Shown here: piece after piece, positions 4,703 through 61,539 of the stretch
How the letters are laid out: each line of letters begins with the position of its first letter
Numbering within the stretch: position 1 is the first letter of the stretch
Translations under genes and position numbers: made by a program
Assembly: GCF_015548375.1 (NCBI RefSeq)
Contig: NZ_JADMWW010000005.1
Coordinates: 1-64,000, forward strand
DNA: 64,000 nt
DNA from: Collinsella aerofaciens
GTDB taxonomy: Bacteria; Actinomycetota; Coriobacteriia; Coriobacteriales; Coriobacteriaceae
Direction of reading: 5' to 3'
Notes under the pieces: model-generated
The model's input: the letters and a program-made list of their open reading frames with translations, nothing else
Told to the model about the DNA's origin: nothing
The model's database searches: none

Positions 4703-4730
4703 CCCTACCGCATCCGGAGCAAGGCAGCGC

Positions 4731-4893
4731 CGCAGGTAGAGGACGGACAGCGAGCGACGTCCAGAGCGAACAAGTTGGCATGAAAAAGGCAAGGCATAGA
4801 CCTTCTGGTCATGCCTTGCCCTTTGAATGACAAATTGTCGCTCTGGGCGGCGTGCAGCGTCAACTGGTCCGCCGTTCGTCAGAACGGCGGAAC
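4731..4893 (-). ncRNA. 3' UTR structured element, copy A (after hspR)
   Basis: Read on the minus strand, this begins at the base after the hspR stop. First comes hairpin P0 (4868-4893, CCGCCGTT/AACGGCGG). GACGCTGC follows, then outer helix P1 (CCAGAGCG pairs with CGCTCTGG, 4839-4846 with 4761-4768), inner helix P2 (ACAA..TG.CAT with ATG.CA..TTGT), and apical hairpin P3 (GGCAAGGCAT...ATGCCTTGCC with GACCAGAAGGTC at the tip). P3 is followed by TTTTT, so it can also terminate transcription. The tail is CGCTGTCCGTCCTCTACCTG. The same architecture with different P1 sequences occurs at 26202-26362 and 34391-34538. Confidence 0.75.
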
Positions 4894-5310
4894 CTACAGA
4901 TCCCCGCCGGCGCCCAGCAGCTTGCGCATGACCTGCTCGGGGTTGACTGAGCCATCACGCGGGGCCAGGGCGGTGATCTTCTTCTGCATCTTGTACTCGT
5001 GCAGCTCGTCCTCGAACTGGCGCACGCGGGCGCGGAGCTTTTCGTTCTCGCGCTCACGCTCCTCGGCACGCTCCTTCATATCGAGGATGCGCACCACGCC
5101 GGCAAGGTTGATACCCTCGTCGGTCAGTTGGTTGATGAGTTCCAGACGCTCGATATCGGCACGCGAATACAGGCGCGTGTTGCCGCCCGAGCGCTGAGGA
5201 TTCACCAGGCCCTTGGACTCGTAGACGCGCAGAGTCTGCGGATGCATGCCGGTCAGCTCGGCCGCCACGCTGATCATGTACAGCGGTTTGTTCCTATTGT
5301 CCTCGGCCAT
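4894..5310 (-). CDS. hspR: MerR-family heat-shock repressor HspR
   Basis: This is a 138-aa DNA-binding repressor, last gene of the dnaK-grpE-dnaJ-hspR group, which in actinobacteria controls that group. The MerR-type winged helix is clear: MISVAAELTGMHPQTLRVYE at about residues 12-31, followed by a GGNTRLYS segment. A coiled-coil-like stretch (about residues 78-110, rich in E, R and K) then mediates dimerisation. Known HspR proteins bind inverted HAIR sites and need DnaK as a co-repressor. No good HAIR copy was found upstream of dnaK here. The stop codon is directly followed by structured element A. Confidence 0.92.
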   Translation of the reverse strand: MAEDNRNKPLYMISVAAELTGMHPQTLRVYESKGLVNPQRSGGNTRLYSRADIERLELINQLTDEGINLAGVVRILDMKERAEERERENEKLRARVRQFEDELHEYKMQKKITALAPRDGSVNPEQVMRKLLGAGGDL

Positions 5311-9423: not shown

Positions 9424-9714
9424 GGTTTGAGCTTGGAGCCGCGCAGGAGACTTTGGGGCGACCCCGGGGAAAGTGCGTCCCGTTTTGAGCGGCGATTCTG
9501 GGATGCAGCTTCCGCTTGAAGGCTCAACCGGAAAATGCAGCCCAGTTTGAGCGTAGATTCCGGGACGCAGTTTCCCGCGGAGCGCTCAACTGGAAACTGC
9601 ATCCCGTTTTGAGAGCGAATTCTGGGACATAGTTTCCGCTAAACGTCCATCGGGAAAGCGCGTCCCAGTCTGAGCGTCAATTCCGGGTCGCGCTTTCCGT
9701 AAGCACGCTCAATC
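9424..9714. repeat. tandem array of about 62-bp palindromic units
   Basis: Four tandem units start at 9466, 9529, 9591 and 9652, with periods of 63, 62 and 61. Each is itself a hairpin of the form GGAAA..GC.TCCC...GGGA.GC..TTTCC with TTTGAGCG and CGCTCAA flanks. The array fills the middle of the gap between divergent dnaK and the ferredoxin gene. A partial single unit is found at 26097-26125. The rest of the gap (9195-9423, 9715-9833) shows nothing further beyond probable promoters. Confidence 0.8.
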
Positions 9715-11632: not shown

Positions 11633-11811
11633 GGGAAGCCTCCTCCCCGCAGGTGCGGTAAGGGCTACCGCACGGGCCGATACTCAAAGCCCATTGTGGC
11701 ACCCCGAGCCCGCGGAAAGAAACTGCAACGCGGGGGAGGCGACCCCAATGGCTTTCTCATATCGTCTTTTGTGTGATAACTAATTTGGCACCGTCGCAGG
11801 TTGAGCTCACG

Positions 11812-11928
11812 TCAGCGAAAACGTCCCTAAGCGAGCAAGGTGACGTGAAAGAGGAGGGAAGCGTACTTTGTGGTACGCGACCGACGATTGAACGTCAGAT
11901 TGCCGCTTAGAGACGTTTGCAGCGTCGG
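11812..11928 (-). ncRNA. 3' UTR structured element, copy B (after niaR)
   Basis: On the minus strand this directly follows the niaR stop. It has GACGCTGC, then P1 of 15 bp (AAACGTCTCTAAGCG at 11918-11904 with CGCTTAGGGACGTTT at 11833-11819, one U-G pair), P2 (GCAATCTGACGT with ACGTCACCTTGC) and the tail CGCTG. The P0 hairpin is absent. The tip is replaced by a GCGTAC/GTACGC hairpin like that of copy F. P1 is nearly the same as in copy C. Confidence 0.7.
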
Positions 11929-12474
11929 CTACGATAGATCGTCTTCGTAGGGCATCAGGTCTGCCAGATAACCCTTCTCCTTGAGCATGGCCTCGATCTC
12001 GTCGAGGGTCTGCTCGTCTTCTGCCGCAATGCGATGGAAGTGATAGCCGCTCGTCACCGTTAGCAGCGGAAAGCTCTTGCCGCTCTCGATATCGTGCAGG
12101 TAGCGCTCAACATCGCGACGATTGCGGATGTCCAGGTCGGCCGTGATCTTACCGTACACGCGGTGATTGACGATCACGTTGAGCACGGCGCCGCCGGCGT
12201 CGACGACACTCGTGAGCTCATCGCCTGCCTGCTCCACGCTGTGGCGAACCTTGACCAAGCGCGTGGGCACGGCGGGGCTGCTGGGGGCCTCCTGCAGCAC
12301 ATAACCACGGTTGGTGGCCACGACATCGTGCCCATCGGCACGCAGCAGGGCAATATCCTGAACCACGATCTGACGGCTCACGCCAACCTCGCGGGCAAGT
12401 GCGCTGCCCGAAACGGGCTCCTTGGCCACCTCGAGCACGTCCATGATGGCACGGCGACGCTCGCGGGCGTTCAT
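11929..12474 (-). CDS. niaR: NAD biosynthesis repressor NiaR
   Basis: This is a 181-aa niacin-responsive transcription repressor. The N-terminal HTH_11 winged helix (about residues 3-60) contains GSALAREVGVSRQIVVQDI. The C-terminal 3H domain (about 75-170) shows conserved histidines in IVNHRVYGKI and in TVTSGYHFHRI, which bind a metal ion and nicotinic acid. It is the last gene of nadA-nadB-nadC-niaR; its ATG shares one base with the nadC stop. It most likely represses its own operon through the palindrome at 15837-15880 when niacin is available. Its 3' end abuts structured element B. Confidence 0.92.
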   Translation of the reverse strand: MNARERRRAIMDVLEVAKEPVSGSALAREVGVSRQIVVQDIALLRADGHDVVATNRGYVLQEAPSSPAVPTRLVKVRHSVEQAGDELTSVVDAGGAVLNVIVNHRVYGKITADLDIRNRRDVERYLHDIESGKSFPLLTVTSGYHFHRIAAEDEQTLDEIEAMLKEKGYLADLMPYEDDLS

Positions 12475-26057: not shown

Positions 26058-26131
26058 CGAAACCGACGCGCTACGCAGTCGCGGCGATTATGCCGCGCGG
26101 AAAGCGCGTCCCGTTTTGACGCTCCAGAGCA

Positions 26132-26201: not shown

Positions 26202-26362
26202 CAGGTAGAGGACGGACAGCGAAAACGCCCCTAAGCGAGCAAGGTGACGTGAAATGAAAGGGCGCTGACCTTCTGGTCGCGCCCTTGAAATTGAACGTCA
26301 GATTGCCGCTTAGGGGCGTTTGCAGCGTCGAGCAGTTGCGGCGTTTGGTAAAACGCCGTAAC
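26202..26362 (-). ncRNA. 3' UTR structured element, copy C (after lipoprotein gene)
   Basis: On the minus strand, P0 (26335-26362, ACGGCGTT/AACGCCG) begins three bases after the stop. GACGCTGC comes next, then a perfect 15-bp P1 (AAACGCCCCTAAGCG, 26321-26307, with its complement at 26237-26223). P2 is GCAATCTGACGT with ACGTCACCTTGC. P3 is AAGGGCGC/GCGCCCTT with GACCAGAAGGTC at the tip. The tail CGCTGTCCGTCCTCTACCTG is identical to copy A over 20 bases, although P1 and P3 differ. Confidence 0.8.
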
Positions 26363-26365
26363 TCC

Positions 26366-26923
26366 CTAGCTCATCATGGCATTCATCATCTCGTTGGTTG
26401 CGGAATCGTCGGCAGACCACTCGCCGTCGTCATTGCAGGAATACTTGAAGGTGACCTTGGTGTCCTTGGTCTTAGCAGCCTTGGTCACATCGACCATAAC
26501 CTGACCGGCCATCTTGTACAGCTCGTCATCGGAAGGCATCGAATCGAGCGCAGCGACCTTCTCCTGGTACTGGGTGGCAAAATCCTCAACGATCTGGTTC
26601 ATGGACTTGCAGGTAATGGTGACCTCGGCAGTCGCGGTGCCCTTGTCCTCGTCGACCGTCACGTCGCCGATCTTGTAGTCAAAGCCCTCGAGATAGCTCT
26701 TGGCGTACTCCTTGGGATCGATGCCCAGCTGCTCGAACTCGTCGCCCGAAGCCTCTTCCAGGCCGGCGAGGAAGTCGTCGCCACCGTTCTTGACCTCGTC
26801 AAACTGCGTCGTAAGATCCTCGGTGATGAGCTCCTCAACCGAAGGACCTCCGCAGCCGGAAAGCACAACCACGCACGCGACCAGAACAGCCATCAGGGGC
26901 ACAAGCAGCAGCTTCTTTTTCAT
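26366..26923 (-). CDS. lipoprotein of unknown function
   Basis: This 185-aa protein has a type II signal peptide: MKKKLLLVPL, a hydrophobic run, then the lipobox VLSGC with Cys24 as the lipidated residue, so it is anchored on the outer face of the membrane. The mature part is acidic, with regular E/D-K patterns and pieces such as VKNGGDDFLAGLEEASGDEF and SYLEGFDYKIGDVTVDEDKG. This fits a small mixed alpha/beta domain like those of secreted DUF proteins in Gram-positive bacteria. ATG 26923 has GGGAGGAA ahead. Its 3' end adjoins structured element C. Confidence 0.8.
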   Translation of the reverse strand: MKKKLLLVPLMAVLVACVVVLSGCGGPSVEELITEDLTTQFDEVKNGGDDFLAGLEEASGDEFEQLGIDPKEYAKSYLEGFDYKIGDVTVDEDKGTATAEVTITCKSMNQIVEDFATQYQEKVAALDSMPSDDELYKMAGQVMVDVTKAAKTKDTKVTFKYSCNDDGEWSADDSATNEMMNAMMS

Positions 26924-27102
26924 GAGATTCCTCCCAACAAGCGGCACCGCGCTTCCCGACGCGGCGCACGTCGTAACAATAAGGCCATACTAGCAGATAA
27001 CGAACACCCCAGGCAAAGCAAAGGCGCAGTCGGCTCGATTTAACGTCCGAACGGTTTACCGATCCGCCCAACGCGCAATAAAACGTTCCGCCGCATTGTA
27101 AT

Positions 27103-34218: not shown

Positions 34219-34250
34219 CAACAAGCGTGGATTTTCGGACACTTATCAAA

Positions 34251-34316
34251 TGAGCGTGGATAATCTCCCACTTTGAGCCCCCACACAGGCCAAAAACGGG
34301 AGATTATCCACGCTCA
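34251..34316. repeat. long perfect inverted repeat
   Basis: The arms of 19 bp (TGAGCGTGGATAATCTCCC, 34251-34269, complement 34298-34316) are perfect, with a 28-base loop. It lies after the RpiR gene, 33 bases past the stop. No other copy was seen in the window. The rest of 34219-34390 has no gene. Confidence 0.8.
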
Positions 34317-34390
34317 TTCTGGATGGTACATTTTCCTCCGTCCCCAAGGGATCCAAGCACCAGCTAAGACAACGCCGATGTCTTGGCACC

Positions 34391-34538
34391 GACAGCGAGC
34401 GGGTCGCATTTGAGACAAGGTGACGTGAAACGAAAGGGCGCTGACCTTCTGGTCGCGCCCTTGAAGTTGAACGTCAGATTGTCCAAATGCGGCCCGCGCA
34501 GCGTCGAGCTGTTACGGCGTTTGGTAAAACGCCGTAAC
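34391..34538 (-). ncRNA. 3' UTR structured element, copy D (after pyrE)
   Basis: On the minus strand, P0 (34538-34511, GTTACGGCG / CGCCGTAAC) overlaps the last base of the pyrE stop. GACGCTGC follows, then a P1 with a wholly different sequence (GCGGGCCGCATTTGGAC, 34497-34481, with GTCTCAAATGCGACCCGC, 34416-34399, one bulge and one mismatch). P2 is ACAATCTGACGT with ACGTCACCTTGT. P3 is AAGGGCGC/GCGCCCTT with tip GACCAGAAGGTC as in copy C. The change of P1 with preserved pairing is the strongest sign that the RNA structure is selected. Confidence 0.8.
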
Positions 34539-35221
34539 TACTCCCGAGCTCCGTACTGCTCGTAGTAGGCATCGATGGCGGTCTTGAGCTCGTCATCGAT
34601 GACGATCTTGCCGTCGATCTCGTGGTTGTAGAGGGTCTCGACGACCTCGGCCATGGAGACGATGCTCGCGACGGGGAAACCGTACTTGGCCTCGATCTCC
34701 TTCTGCGCGGTGGTCACGCCACCCTTGCCGACCTCCATGCGGTTGAGGGACACGATGAGGCCCTTGATCTCGACATCGGCAGCAGCCTTGACCTTGGGAT
34801 AGGTCTCGTCGATGGACTTGCCGCTGGTGGTGACATCCTCGACCATGACCACGCGGTCGCCGTCCTGGGGCTCATAGCCCAGCAGGTTGCCCTTGTCGGC
34901 GCCGTGGTCCTTGGCCTCCTTGCGGTCGCAGCAGTACTTGACCTCCTTGCCGTACAGCTCGTGGTAGGCAATTGCGGTCACGACGGCCAGGGGAATGCCC
35001 TTGTAGGCCGGCCCAAACAGCACGTCAAAGTCGTCGCCAAAGTTATCGTGGATGGCCTGGGCGTAATACTCGCCCAGCTTCTTGAGCTGGTAGCCCGTCA
35101 CGTAAGCGCCGGCGTTCATAAAAAACGGGGACTGGCGGCCGCTCTTGAGCGTAAAGCTGCCGAACTTAAGAACGTCGGACTCAACCATAAACTTGATGAA
35201 CTCTTGCTTGTAAGCCTCCAT
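34538..35221 (-). CDS. pyrE: orotate phosphoribosyltransferase
   Basis: This is a 227-aa enzyme of pyrimidine synthesis, joining orotate and PRPP to orotidine 5'-monophosphate. The type I PRTase fold has the PRPP loop RVVMVEDVTTSGKSIDE, plus SGRQSPFFMNAG, LFGPAYKGIPLAVVTAIAYH and a helical C-terminal part. GAGAGGAG precedes ATG 35221. It stands apart from other pyr genes, as a single transcription unit ended by structured element D. Confidence 0.94.
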   Translation of the reverse strand: MEAYKQEFIKFMVESDVLKFGSFTLKSGRQSPFFMNAGAYVTGYQLKKLGEYYAQAIHDNFGDDFDVLFGPAYKGIPLAVVTAIAYHELYGKEVKYCCDRKEAKDHGADKGNLLGYEPQDGDRVVMVEDVTTSGKSIDETYPKVKAAADVEIKGLIVSLNRMEVGKGGVTTAQKEIEAKYGFPVASIVSMAEVVETLYNHEIDGKIVIDDELKTAIDAYYEQYGARE

Positions 35222-35518: not shown

Positions 35519-35541
35519 GCGCCAACAGCCGATCACCAAAA

Positions 35542-35576
35542 TCACCACAAAGGTGCCTGTCCCTTTGTGGTGGTTC
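35542..35576. repeat. R1 palindromic repeat copy 4
   Basis: This sequence, TCACCACAAAGGTGCCTGTC then CCTTTGTGGTGG, lies between the possible leader peptide and mgtA, where its hairpin could influence read-through. Confidence 0.7.
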
Positions 35577-35658
35577 GTGAGCTTGACGTGAGCGACATCT
35601 AGGTTTTTTGCAACTCAATACGACACGTACGCTAACTCCCTTCAACAAGGAGGACCCT

Positions 35659-38427: not shown

Positions 38428-38443
38428 CAGACGGCCCTAAGGC

Positions 38444-38485
38444 AAAACCACCACAAAGGTGCCTGTCCCCTTTGCGGTGGTTTTG
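38444..38485. repeat. R1 palindromic repeat copy 5
   Basis: It sits between the convergent mgtA and lipoprotein genes, 17 and 6 bases from their stops. AAAACCACCACAAAGG pairs with CCTTTGCGGTGGTTTT. It probably acts as a bidirectional terminator. Confidence 0.75.
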
Positions 38486-38490
38486 GGGCG

Positions 38491-42066: not shown

Positions 42067-42168
42067 AGGCCCACCCCTTCCGTTCTGCTCCGCTCAACAT
42101 CACATTCATATGCCTTTGAGCGCCAAAACGGCAGGTGACAAATGTCTCATATTCATATTTTTGCAGGT

Positions 42169-42210
42169 AAAACCACCACAAAGGTGCCTGTCCCCTTCGT
42201 GGTGGTTTTG
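42169..42210. repeat. R1 palindromic repeat copy 6
   Basis: Directly after the stop of the minus-strand LuxR gene, AAAACCACCACAAAGG pairs with CCTTCGTGGTGGTTTT. Its placement again fits a transcript-end hairpin. Confidence 0.75.
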
Positions 42211-42211
42211 G

Positions 42212-43756: not shown

Positions 43757-43869
43757 GGTAACCCCCACCCGCTTAGATGTCCGGAAAACCATTTTAATGG
43801 AGAACGGGTCTTACTACACACGCAATGCCGGAAGTATTACACATCAGACCTCTACCGCCCTCAACAGCA

Positions 43870-43934
43870 GTTGCGGTGGAATACGGACTGTTTACAGCCA
43901 AAAAGGCTGGATTTAGACCGTATTTCACCGCAAC
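43870..43934. repeat. R3 palindrome copy 1
   Basis: GTTGCGGTGGAATACGG and CCGTATTTCACCGCAAC form 17-bp arms (one wobble). It lies with copy 2 in the 342-bp gap 43757-44098, which has no gene. Confidence 0.8.
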
Positions 43935-43964
43935 CAAAGGAGCCCTTCTCCGATCGCGCGCTCA

Positions 43965-44029
43965 GTTGCGGTGGAATAGTTCCTGTTTGTCCGGCTGAGG
44001 GCACTTTTTAGGAACTATTCCACCGCAAC
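43965..44029. repeat. R3 palindrome copy 2
   Basis: GTTGCGGTGGAATAGTTCC and its perfect complement form 19-bp arms, ending 70 bases from the stop of the DUF4038 gene. A third copy is at 50784-50848. Confidence 0.8.
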
Positions 44030-44098
44030 TTATTGAGGGACTGGGTTGCGTGCGATGGAGAAGGGGATGGAGGGATCGGAAGTGTTGGAGCTCGGGTG

Positions 44099-48890: not shown

Positions 48891-49013
48891 CGGGGCCGAG
48901 GGCTTACCTCTGAAAATGTCCTCGGGCATGCGGCCCGGTTGCACCACGCGCTTCGCGCTGTGCAACCGGGCCGCCCCCTGCGGAATATTTTCAGAGGTAA
49001 GCCCTCGGCCCCG
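48891..49013. repeat. giant nested perfect palindrome
   Basis: The outer arms are 27 bp and perfect (48891-48917 and 48987-49013, containing GGGCTTACCTCTGAAAAT). A second perfect 15-bp repeat lies inside (GCGGCCCGGTTGCAC, 48930-48944, complement 48960-48974), with a small hairpin at its tip. It lies 13 bases after the esterase stop. The remainder (49014-49142) has nothing beyond the next ribosome site. It could be a strong transcript-end or cruciform structure. Confidence 0.85.
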
Positions 49014-50777: not shown

Positions 50778-50783
50778 CCAGAA

Positions 50784-50848
50784 GTTGCGGTGGAATAGTT
50801 CCTGTTTGGCCTTCTATGGCCCACATTTAGGAACTATTTCACCGCAAG
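50784..50848. repeat. R3 palindrome copy 3
   Basis: The GTTGCGGTGGAATAGTTCC arm is the same as at 43965, and the partner arm carries two changes. It lies in 50655-50979, a 325-bp gap with only repeats and the ribosome site of the next gene. Confidence 0.75.
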
Positions 50849-50979
50849 TTATTTGGGGATGAAAAATGGGCCATGTGTCCCAGTTGTAGAGACTCGTTGA
50901 GCCATCTGGGTATCGTGAAAGATCGCGCACTCCCCCATCATCAAAAGTGACACACGCTACCTGTTGATGGGAGGCAACC

Positions 50980-59514: not shown

Positions 59515-61093
<1,579 letters not shown>

Positions 61094-61162: not shown

Positions 61163-61223
61163 CGACACTTCTTTTCGCACGCAGGCGCCCAGCAGCCGCC
61201 CGAGCCTGACACTTTCTGATACC
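61163..61223 (-). promoter_or_regulatory. shared upstream element of GH1 genes, copy 2
   Basis: On the minus strand, GGTATCAGAAAGTGTCAGG and TGCGAAAAGAAGTGTCG are separated by 25 bases, ending 82 bases before the start codon. This matches 29504-29563 in sequence at both ends, in spacing and in distance from the gene, while the middle differs. Confidence 0.65.
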
Positions 61224-61224
61224 C

Positions 61225-61262
61225 AACCACCAAAAAGAGGACAGGCACCTTTGTGGTGGTTT
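61225..61262. repeat. R1 palindromic repeat copy 7
   Basis: AACCACCAAAAAGAGGACAG followed by GCACCTTTGTGGTGGTTT. It is upstream of the second GH1 gene and begins a gene-free stretch up to 61751. Confidence 0.7.
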
Positions 61263-61292
61263 GGACCCGAGAGATAGTCCGCTCCGCCGGTT

Positions 61293-61431
61293 TGTCTCAA
61301 TCTGTAACAGTTAGACCGTTAAAACCGAGCCTGGTGTTACAGATCGAGATTTTCGGGCAGCCCCCTGCAGTTTGTCTCGTTCTGTAACAGGAAAAGACGA
61401 TTTAGCCTGCTAGATGTTACAGAACGAGACA
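61293..61431. repeat. R2 palindromes, two copies beside the IS110 element
   Basis: The copies are at 61293-61349 and 61373-61431; the second has perfect 17-bp arms (TGTCTCGTTCTGTAACA). The arms vary (CAATC, CGTTC, CGATC) in step on both sides. The following 61432-61480 could encode MGLIEKNLDINEDRD on the minus strand, perhaps a remnant of a disrupted gene. Confidence 0.8.
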
Positions 61432-61539
61432 GAAGGTCCCGGTCTTCGTTGATGTCGAGGTTCTTTTCGATGAGCCCCATTACAGTCAGAAATGAGCTAT
61501 TCGATACCCCGTTGATGCATTTCCCCGGTGTCGGATACG

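Follow-up and report, generated by a model that had tools for sequence, protein, structure and literature searches.

Hairpins of about 115 bases at gene ends in Collinsella aerofaciens belong to one family, an order-wide, high-copy structured repeat of common gut bacteria that is previously undescribed in Rfam or in the open-access literature searched. It looks like a repeat that spreads, is swapped and is lost, and not like a part of particular genes. We read it as a REP/MITE-like repeat of the Coriobacteriales spreading through a single-stranded intermediate, and put the probability of this reading at roughly one half. The window—the whole 64,000-nucleotide stretch analysed here—holds five elements (A, B, C, D and F), which an earlier note had grouped as a recurrent family. 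This grouping holds: a covariance model (R2) built from 63 diverse copies, mainly from outside the window, matches exactly these five, all on the plus strand (E = 5e-26 to 4e-18). The next-best matches in the window stand at 3e-4 and worse, the first among them being these loci on the opposite strand. F, which had been listed as a subtype, does belong to the family, as a full member and not a mere subtype. The features are given below, where the model strand corresponds to the plus strand of the window and gene calls made in our scripts are heuristic (frame composition).

4728-4745, plus strand: 5' flank module of A, containing GCCGCAGGTAGAGGACG, common to many class I copies (copy comparison)
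4746-4861, plus strand (the better-folding strand): main hairpin of A, class I, A-type tip (R2 E = 1.2e-20; model R1 E = 5e-30; fold)
4866-4893, no strand assigned: hp2 of A (GGTCCGCCGTTCGTCAGAACGGCGGAAC), directly beside the hspR TAG stop (4894-4896, minus strand; HspR by NCBIfam)
11811-11926, plus strand: main hairpin of B, without hp2, ending 2 nt from the stop of a 181-aa gene (11929-12474, minus strand; R2 E = 5e-26)
26215-26329, plus strand: main hairpin of C, class I (R2 E = 1.4e-22)
26334-26362, no strand assigned: hp2 of C, 3 nt away from a TAG stop, that of a lipoprotein gene (26366-26947, minus strand; from sequence)
34391-34505, plus strand: main hairpin of D, class I (R2 E = 5.8e-23)
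34510-34538, no strand assigned: hp2 of D, in contact with the pyrE TAG stop (34538-35221, minus strand; PyrE by NCBIfam)
59544-59659, plus strand: main hairpin of F, class II (R2 E = 3.6e-18), its outer stem overlapping the TAG stop of a 6-phospho-beta-glucosidase gene (59651-61081, minus strand; gene by NCBIfam)

Elements A, C and D are composites: besides the 115-nt main hairpin, each has a second, small hairpin (hp2) in contact with the stop codon. B and F have no hp2. Read along the model strand, an element starts with a flank such as CAGGTTGGCGTAGTAA or GCCGCAGGTTGAG, followed by GTCAGCGAG, an outer stem (variable, about 15 pairs), a double mismatch of G.G and G.A and a 6-pair helix; beyond this helix the motif TGAAAGAGGAG faces GACGATTGA to give tandem G.A pairs. 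The tip loop is usually UUNN and CGCAGCGTC comes afterwards; in class I, hp2 (GTTMCG...CGKAAC) is next in line, while class II has no hp2, the outer stem there extending to the stop codon or taking it in. The main hairpin measures about 106-120 nt, mostly 114-117, and tips, stems and hp2 are modules exchanged between copies. The inner helix common to A-D and the tip common to A, C and D are as first described, and the outer helices of A, C and D, unrelated in sequence, do stay paired, with two-sided changes at 20 of 45 pairs over four copies.

Across an alignment of 63 sequences, all 29 consensus pairs change on both sides, and 94% of pair cells hold a standard pair against 63% in shuffles, none of which attains the observed values; these shuffle counts are not probabilities, since the copies are related and the structure was derived from the alignment under test. 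When partners are slid by one column, pairing in the same alignment drops to 37-45%. Pairing is thus strongly supported, with the covariation that the earlier note had made its own test of the family. Part of this covariation could come from quasipalindrome template switching and not from selection, and gene-end sequence copied into the far arm (L190/L203) points towards such switching, which leaves the strand asymmetry unexplained. At one locus in the 3' flank of the lipoprotein gene (L486), a chimeric hairpin carries arms of different subtypes and is likely a recombinant at the conserved tip.

In the genome from which the window comes, blastn recovers about 25 full copies, and model R1 gives 55 matches, or about 47 copies after opposite-strand duplicates are dropped; 36 congeners carry between 0 and 47 copies each. 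With R2, the family was found in 62 of 120 sampled Coriobacteriales genomes and in 30 of 66 genera, the richest genomes of this survey having at least 31 copies each. Named matches come from Collinsella species, one uncultured Olsenella, one uncultured Atopobiaceae bacterium and Slackia isoflavoniconvertens, and copies are fully or almost absent from many relatives, the congeners G001, G014 and G026 among them. Rfam gave no family match, whether at gathering thresholds or at relaxed ones. This holds for the Collinsella-1 RNA too (RF01700), whose likeness to the hairpin family is that it was named from the same genus. A phage, virus or plasmid origin was rejected: the phages and viral contigs searched gave no match, and the single plasmid match is a 900-kb Collinsella record.

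The earlier note had taken the hairpins for structured RNA on the sense strand of the adjoining gene, and here the results go the other way. Under RNA parameters, 127 of the 129 distinct Collinsella-set copies have their lower folding energy on the model strand; DNA parameters favour the same strand in 162 of 163 copies, including those of G102, a complete genome from another family. Isolated wobble pairs read on the model strand as G.T far more often than as A.C (104 vs 28 in Collinsella, 43 vs 6 in G102; by distinct contexts, 47 vs 24 and 31 vs 6). Internal mismatches are mostly purine.purine (G.A 402, G.G 168) as opposed to pyrimidine.pyrimidine (T.C 11, C.C 5), and a tandem U.G/G.U pair conserved in class II (columns 24-25) becomes tandem mismatches on the other strand. 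Because energies, wobble pairs and mismatches agree, sense-strand RNA is not the selected form: the fold is kept on the complement of the mRNA strand. Cytosine deamination was rejected as the source of the G.T excess, since it would be expected to hit the gene-sense strand (coding, and lagging-strand template) and so to give the opposite bias. Covariation in a hairpin that follows a gene does not by itself, then, make the hairpin an RNA of that gene.

Placement at gene ends is as tight as had been claimed and is not random. All five elements of the window start 0-4 bases from a stop codon; of 61 class I copies from Collinsella, 53 have an hp2 whose end falls at -4 to +4 nt relative to the stop, and in G102 the hp2 of 22 out of 27 copies ends between -5 and +4. 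Gene and fold are on opposite strands in class I, with few exceptions. Class II occurs in both orientations, as between a P-type ATPase gene and the following HMA-domain gene or between cysS and the next gene, and lies within operons such as pheS-pheT; many copies of the family stand between co-directional genes. In two genera the same site, between a pair of his genes, holds a class I copy (L456 of G098 and L472 of G091; gene names by inspection), and there the orientation is gene-sense, the reverse of almost every other class I copy. Further copies were seen at the 3' end of rnpB (L057, 1501-1614) and of a tRNA gene (L092, 2001-2117), both genes being identified by sequence inspection, which means that stop codons are not required. 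TAG stops are over-represented (47/61 vs 133/302, p = 2e-6, for copies that are not independent). That the element provides the stop codon, as GTAG REPs do, was rejected, since element-free hspR, pyrE and pheS orthologues end at the same place. The neighbouring genes are functionally unrelated, as the earlier note had it, which rules out a gene-specific function; they also change from genus to genus, a match in Collinsella existing for only 3 of the 28 in G102.

Such placement is what would be expected if the element acted in the mRNA, with hp2 and the long hairpin blocking 3' exonucleases or ending transcription behind the stop. The copies behind rnpB and a tRNA gene agree with this, as do the T-rich stretches that, on the gene-sense strand, follow the inner hairpin in copies of types A, C and D, ordinary T-run terminators at many element-free pyrE and lipoprotein orthologues, and long retention at some sites. 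We nevertheless consider a gene-sense 3' UTR role unlikely: the wobble and mismatch asymmetry places the fold on the other strand, T-run terminators are not depleted behind genes that have the element, terminator-like sites in a scan of the window do not exceed those in shuffles, and class II copies sit inside operons, in either orientation over the family. Neither hp2 nor class II offers a GC-rich hairpin with a T-run on the gene-sense strand. Intrinsic terminators are likewise hairpins behind genes, and T-rich stretches do follow some subtypes here, but the family has no consistent T-run, is much longer, occurs in operons and in both orientations, and in most copies folds on the non-mRNA strand.

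Could the model strand itself be the functional RNA, either as a structured antisense transcript or as the 3' end of convergent ones, acting in trans or shielding the gene from antisense transcription? C(UUCG)G is among the commonest tip loops (20/106 and 11/28), and the conserved tandem U.G/G.U pairs and tandem G.A loops would suit an RNA. A promoter for such a transcript was sought in the 120 nt upstream and rejected, promoter-like sequence being found in 0 of 148 and 0 of 35 cases, below shuffles. Many copies lie between co-directional genes, with no gene there to transcribe the model strand, and DNA parameters give the same strand preference, so that we regard this RNA as improbable.

The hairpins are also oriented by replication. 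Over five complete genomes, the model strand is lagging-sense in about 92% of copies. In G102, 39 of 40 copies flip orientation where GC skew changes sign, with the model strand lagging-sense; the corresponding counts are 32/34 in G091 and 41/45 in G098 (skew checked), 28-29/30 in G115 (without a skew check) and 29/35 in G131, a Collinsella. In the stretches sampled, only 60-65% of genes are on the leading strand, too few for gene orientation by itself to produce this polarity (p = 2e-7 in G102); part of the bias could arise if the element favours highly expressed genes on the leading strand. An orientation that depends on replication is among the known marks of mobile elements (PMC5371812). 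It might also be expected of a site for chromosome maintenance, at which a host protein acting at the fork, in segregation or in supercoiling would recognise a DNA hairpin oriented by replication; the replichore polarity in five genomes, the restriction to chromosomes and the presence in 30 of 66 genera would suit such a site. This reading is quite improbable in our judgement: the family is absent or nearly so in many relatives, congeners included, and such a site would therefore not be essential; copy numbers and sites vary widely; and in G131 the polarity of class II is weak (6 vs 3).

Turnover is visible at the pheS stop. The site is occupied in the species of the window, empty in a congener with a 98% identical PheS (the occupied/empty pair L418 and L419) and occupied again in other genera; one genome has two tandem copies there (L427) and another an apparently decayed copy. 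No clear target-site duplication was found at this one pair. Most close species have the element behind their near-identical hspR, pyrE and lipoprotein genes, in the form of different subtypes; in distant congeners these sites are empty. A separate hairpin behind pyrE (window 34249-34318, GAGCGTGGATAATCTCCC...GGGAGATTATCCACGCTC) is also seen behind pyrE or hspR in sibling species.

Variable copy number, the occupied/empty pair and the subtype swaps make a mobile hairpin family, the last of the alternatives in the earlier note, the best fit, and the high-copy, intergenic, gene-end and mosaic character of the copies is that of REP/BIME repeats. On the reading that we favour, the family would be a non-autonomous interspersed palindromic element whose copies spread via single-stranded DNA, or via RNA copied into DNA, the intermediate having to fold on the model strand. 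Copies would insert or be kept at sites with an exposed gene-sense strand, meaning the 3' end of a gene on the leading strand, where an insertion would do the least harm; recombination among resident copies would then swap stems and tips. Effects on the host gene, such as mRNA 3' end stability or, in some subtypes, termination, would be secondary. Several observations count against this spreading repeat: no transposase or integrase is associated with the copies, the phages and viral contigs searched gave no match, sites that are kept in nearly all close species (16/16 for the lipoprotein gene, most for pyrE) fit a useful function as well, and the folding strand is not on the lagging-strand template, as it would be in a classical single-strand transposon. 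Strand-specific folding, near-zero distance to the stop and replichore polarity together make a testable puzzle of how a palindromic repeat spreads and settles at gene ends.

Neither transposition itself nor a target-site duplication was seen, and a non-exhaustive search saw no autonomous copy. The two Y1 transposase genes of the genome itself are not flanked by family copies. Dependence on a RAYT was rejected, since copy-rich G091, G098 and G115 have no Y1_Tnp (PF01797); within the genus, genomes without Y1 have few copies (p = 0.002, confounded by phylogeny). A GTAG/RAYT REP was rejected too, on the length of the main hairpin (about 106-120 nt, not 20-40) and the lack of a conserved GTAG before hp2. 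REP/BIME and REPIN repeats (GTAG and CGTC superfamilies; PMC3733652) resemble the family in being interspersed palindromes mostly downstream of genes, often touching stops, with mosaic arrangement and compensated stems. They are 20-40 nt long, whereas the family here has a fixed length of 115 nt, conserved G.A loops, no GTAG tag beyond the stop codon itself, replichore polarity and a presence in genomes without Y1 transposase; the main text of the REP survey (PMC3733652) does not mention Actinobacteria. MITEs (RUP, NEMIS, ERIC) are likewise short, non-coding, multicopy elements with inverted ends beside genes, but the present family is one hairpin throughout and confined to gene ends, and no related autonomous transposon or target duplication was found. 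IS200/IS605 elements share strand-specific hairpins and an orientation that mirrors replication direction (PMC5371812); unlike them, the family has no gene and no TnpA requirement, and an IS200/IS605-type single-strand transposon was rejected because the model strand is lagging-sense, that is, the leading-strand template. A new kind of mobile element, entering directly behind leading-strand stop codons through a folded single-stranded (possibly RNA) intermediate and a putative enzyme, the directions of gene and replication together setting its orientation, is a speculative option that we hold to be doubtful.

Several other repeats were seen in the window. A second, shorter palindrome family (CCACAAAGGTGCCTGTCCCCTTTGTGG) occurs at 67-113, 935-981, 35534-35580, 38440-38486, 42165-42211 and 61219-61265, and related GGGGAC-containing hairpins, such as TAGTCATTGGGGACGTTCTTAAATGACTA, stand beside A and C. 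Both resemble REP-type repeats, with two Y1_Tnp genes at other places in the genome as candidate partners. Four tandem hairpins with a period of about 62 bp (GGAAAnTGCGTCCCGTTTTGAGCG...) lie at 9468-9701, with a single relative at 26093-26119. Hairpins of the form AGTTGCGGTGGAATAGTTCC...GGAACTATTCCACCGCAACT at 43869-44040 and 50783-50859 make a further repeat family, similar arms being found beside L008 and L024. Repeats TCTCGATCTGTAACA...TGTTACAGATCGAGA are present near both window ends (993-1231 and 61289-61433), and 48891-49013 is a palindrome with 60-nt arms that are 82% complementary and 3 nt apart.
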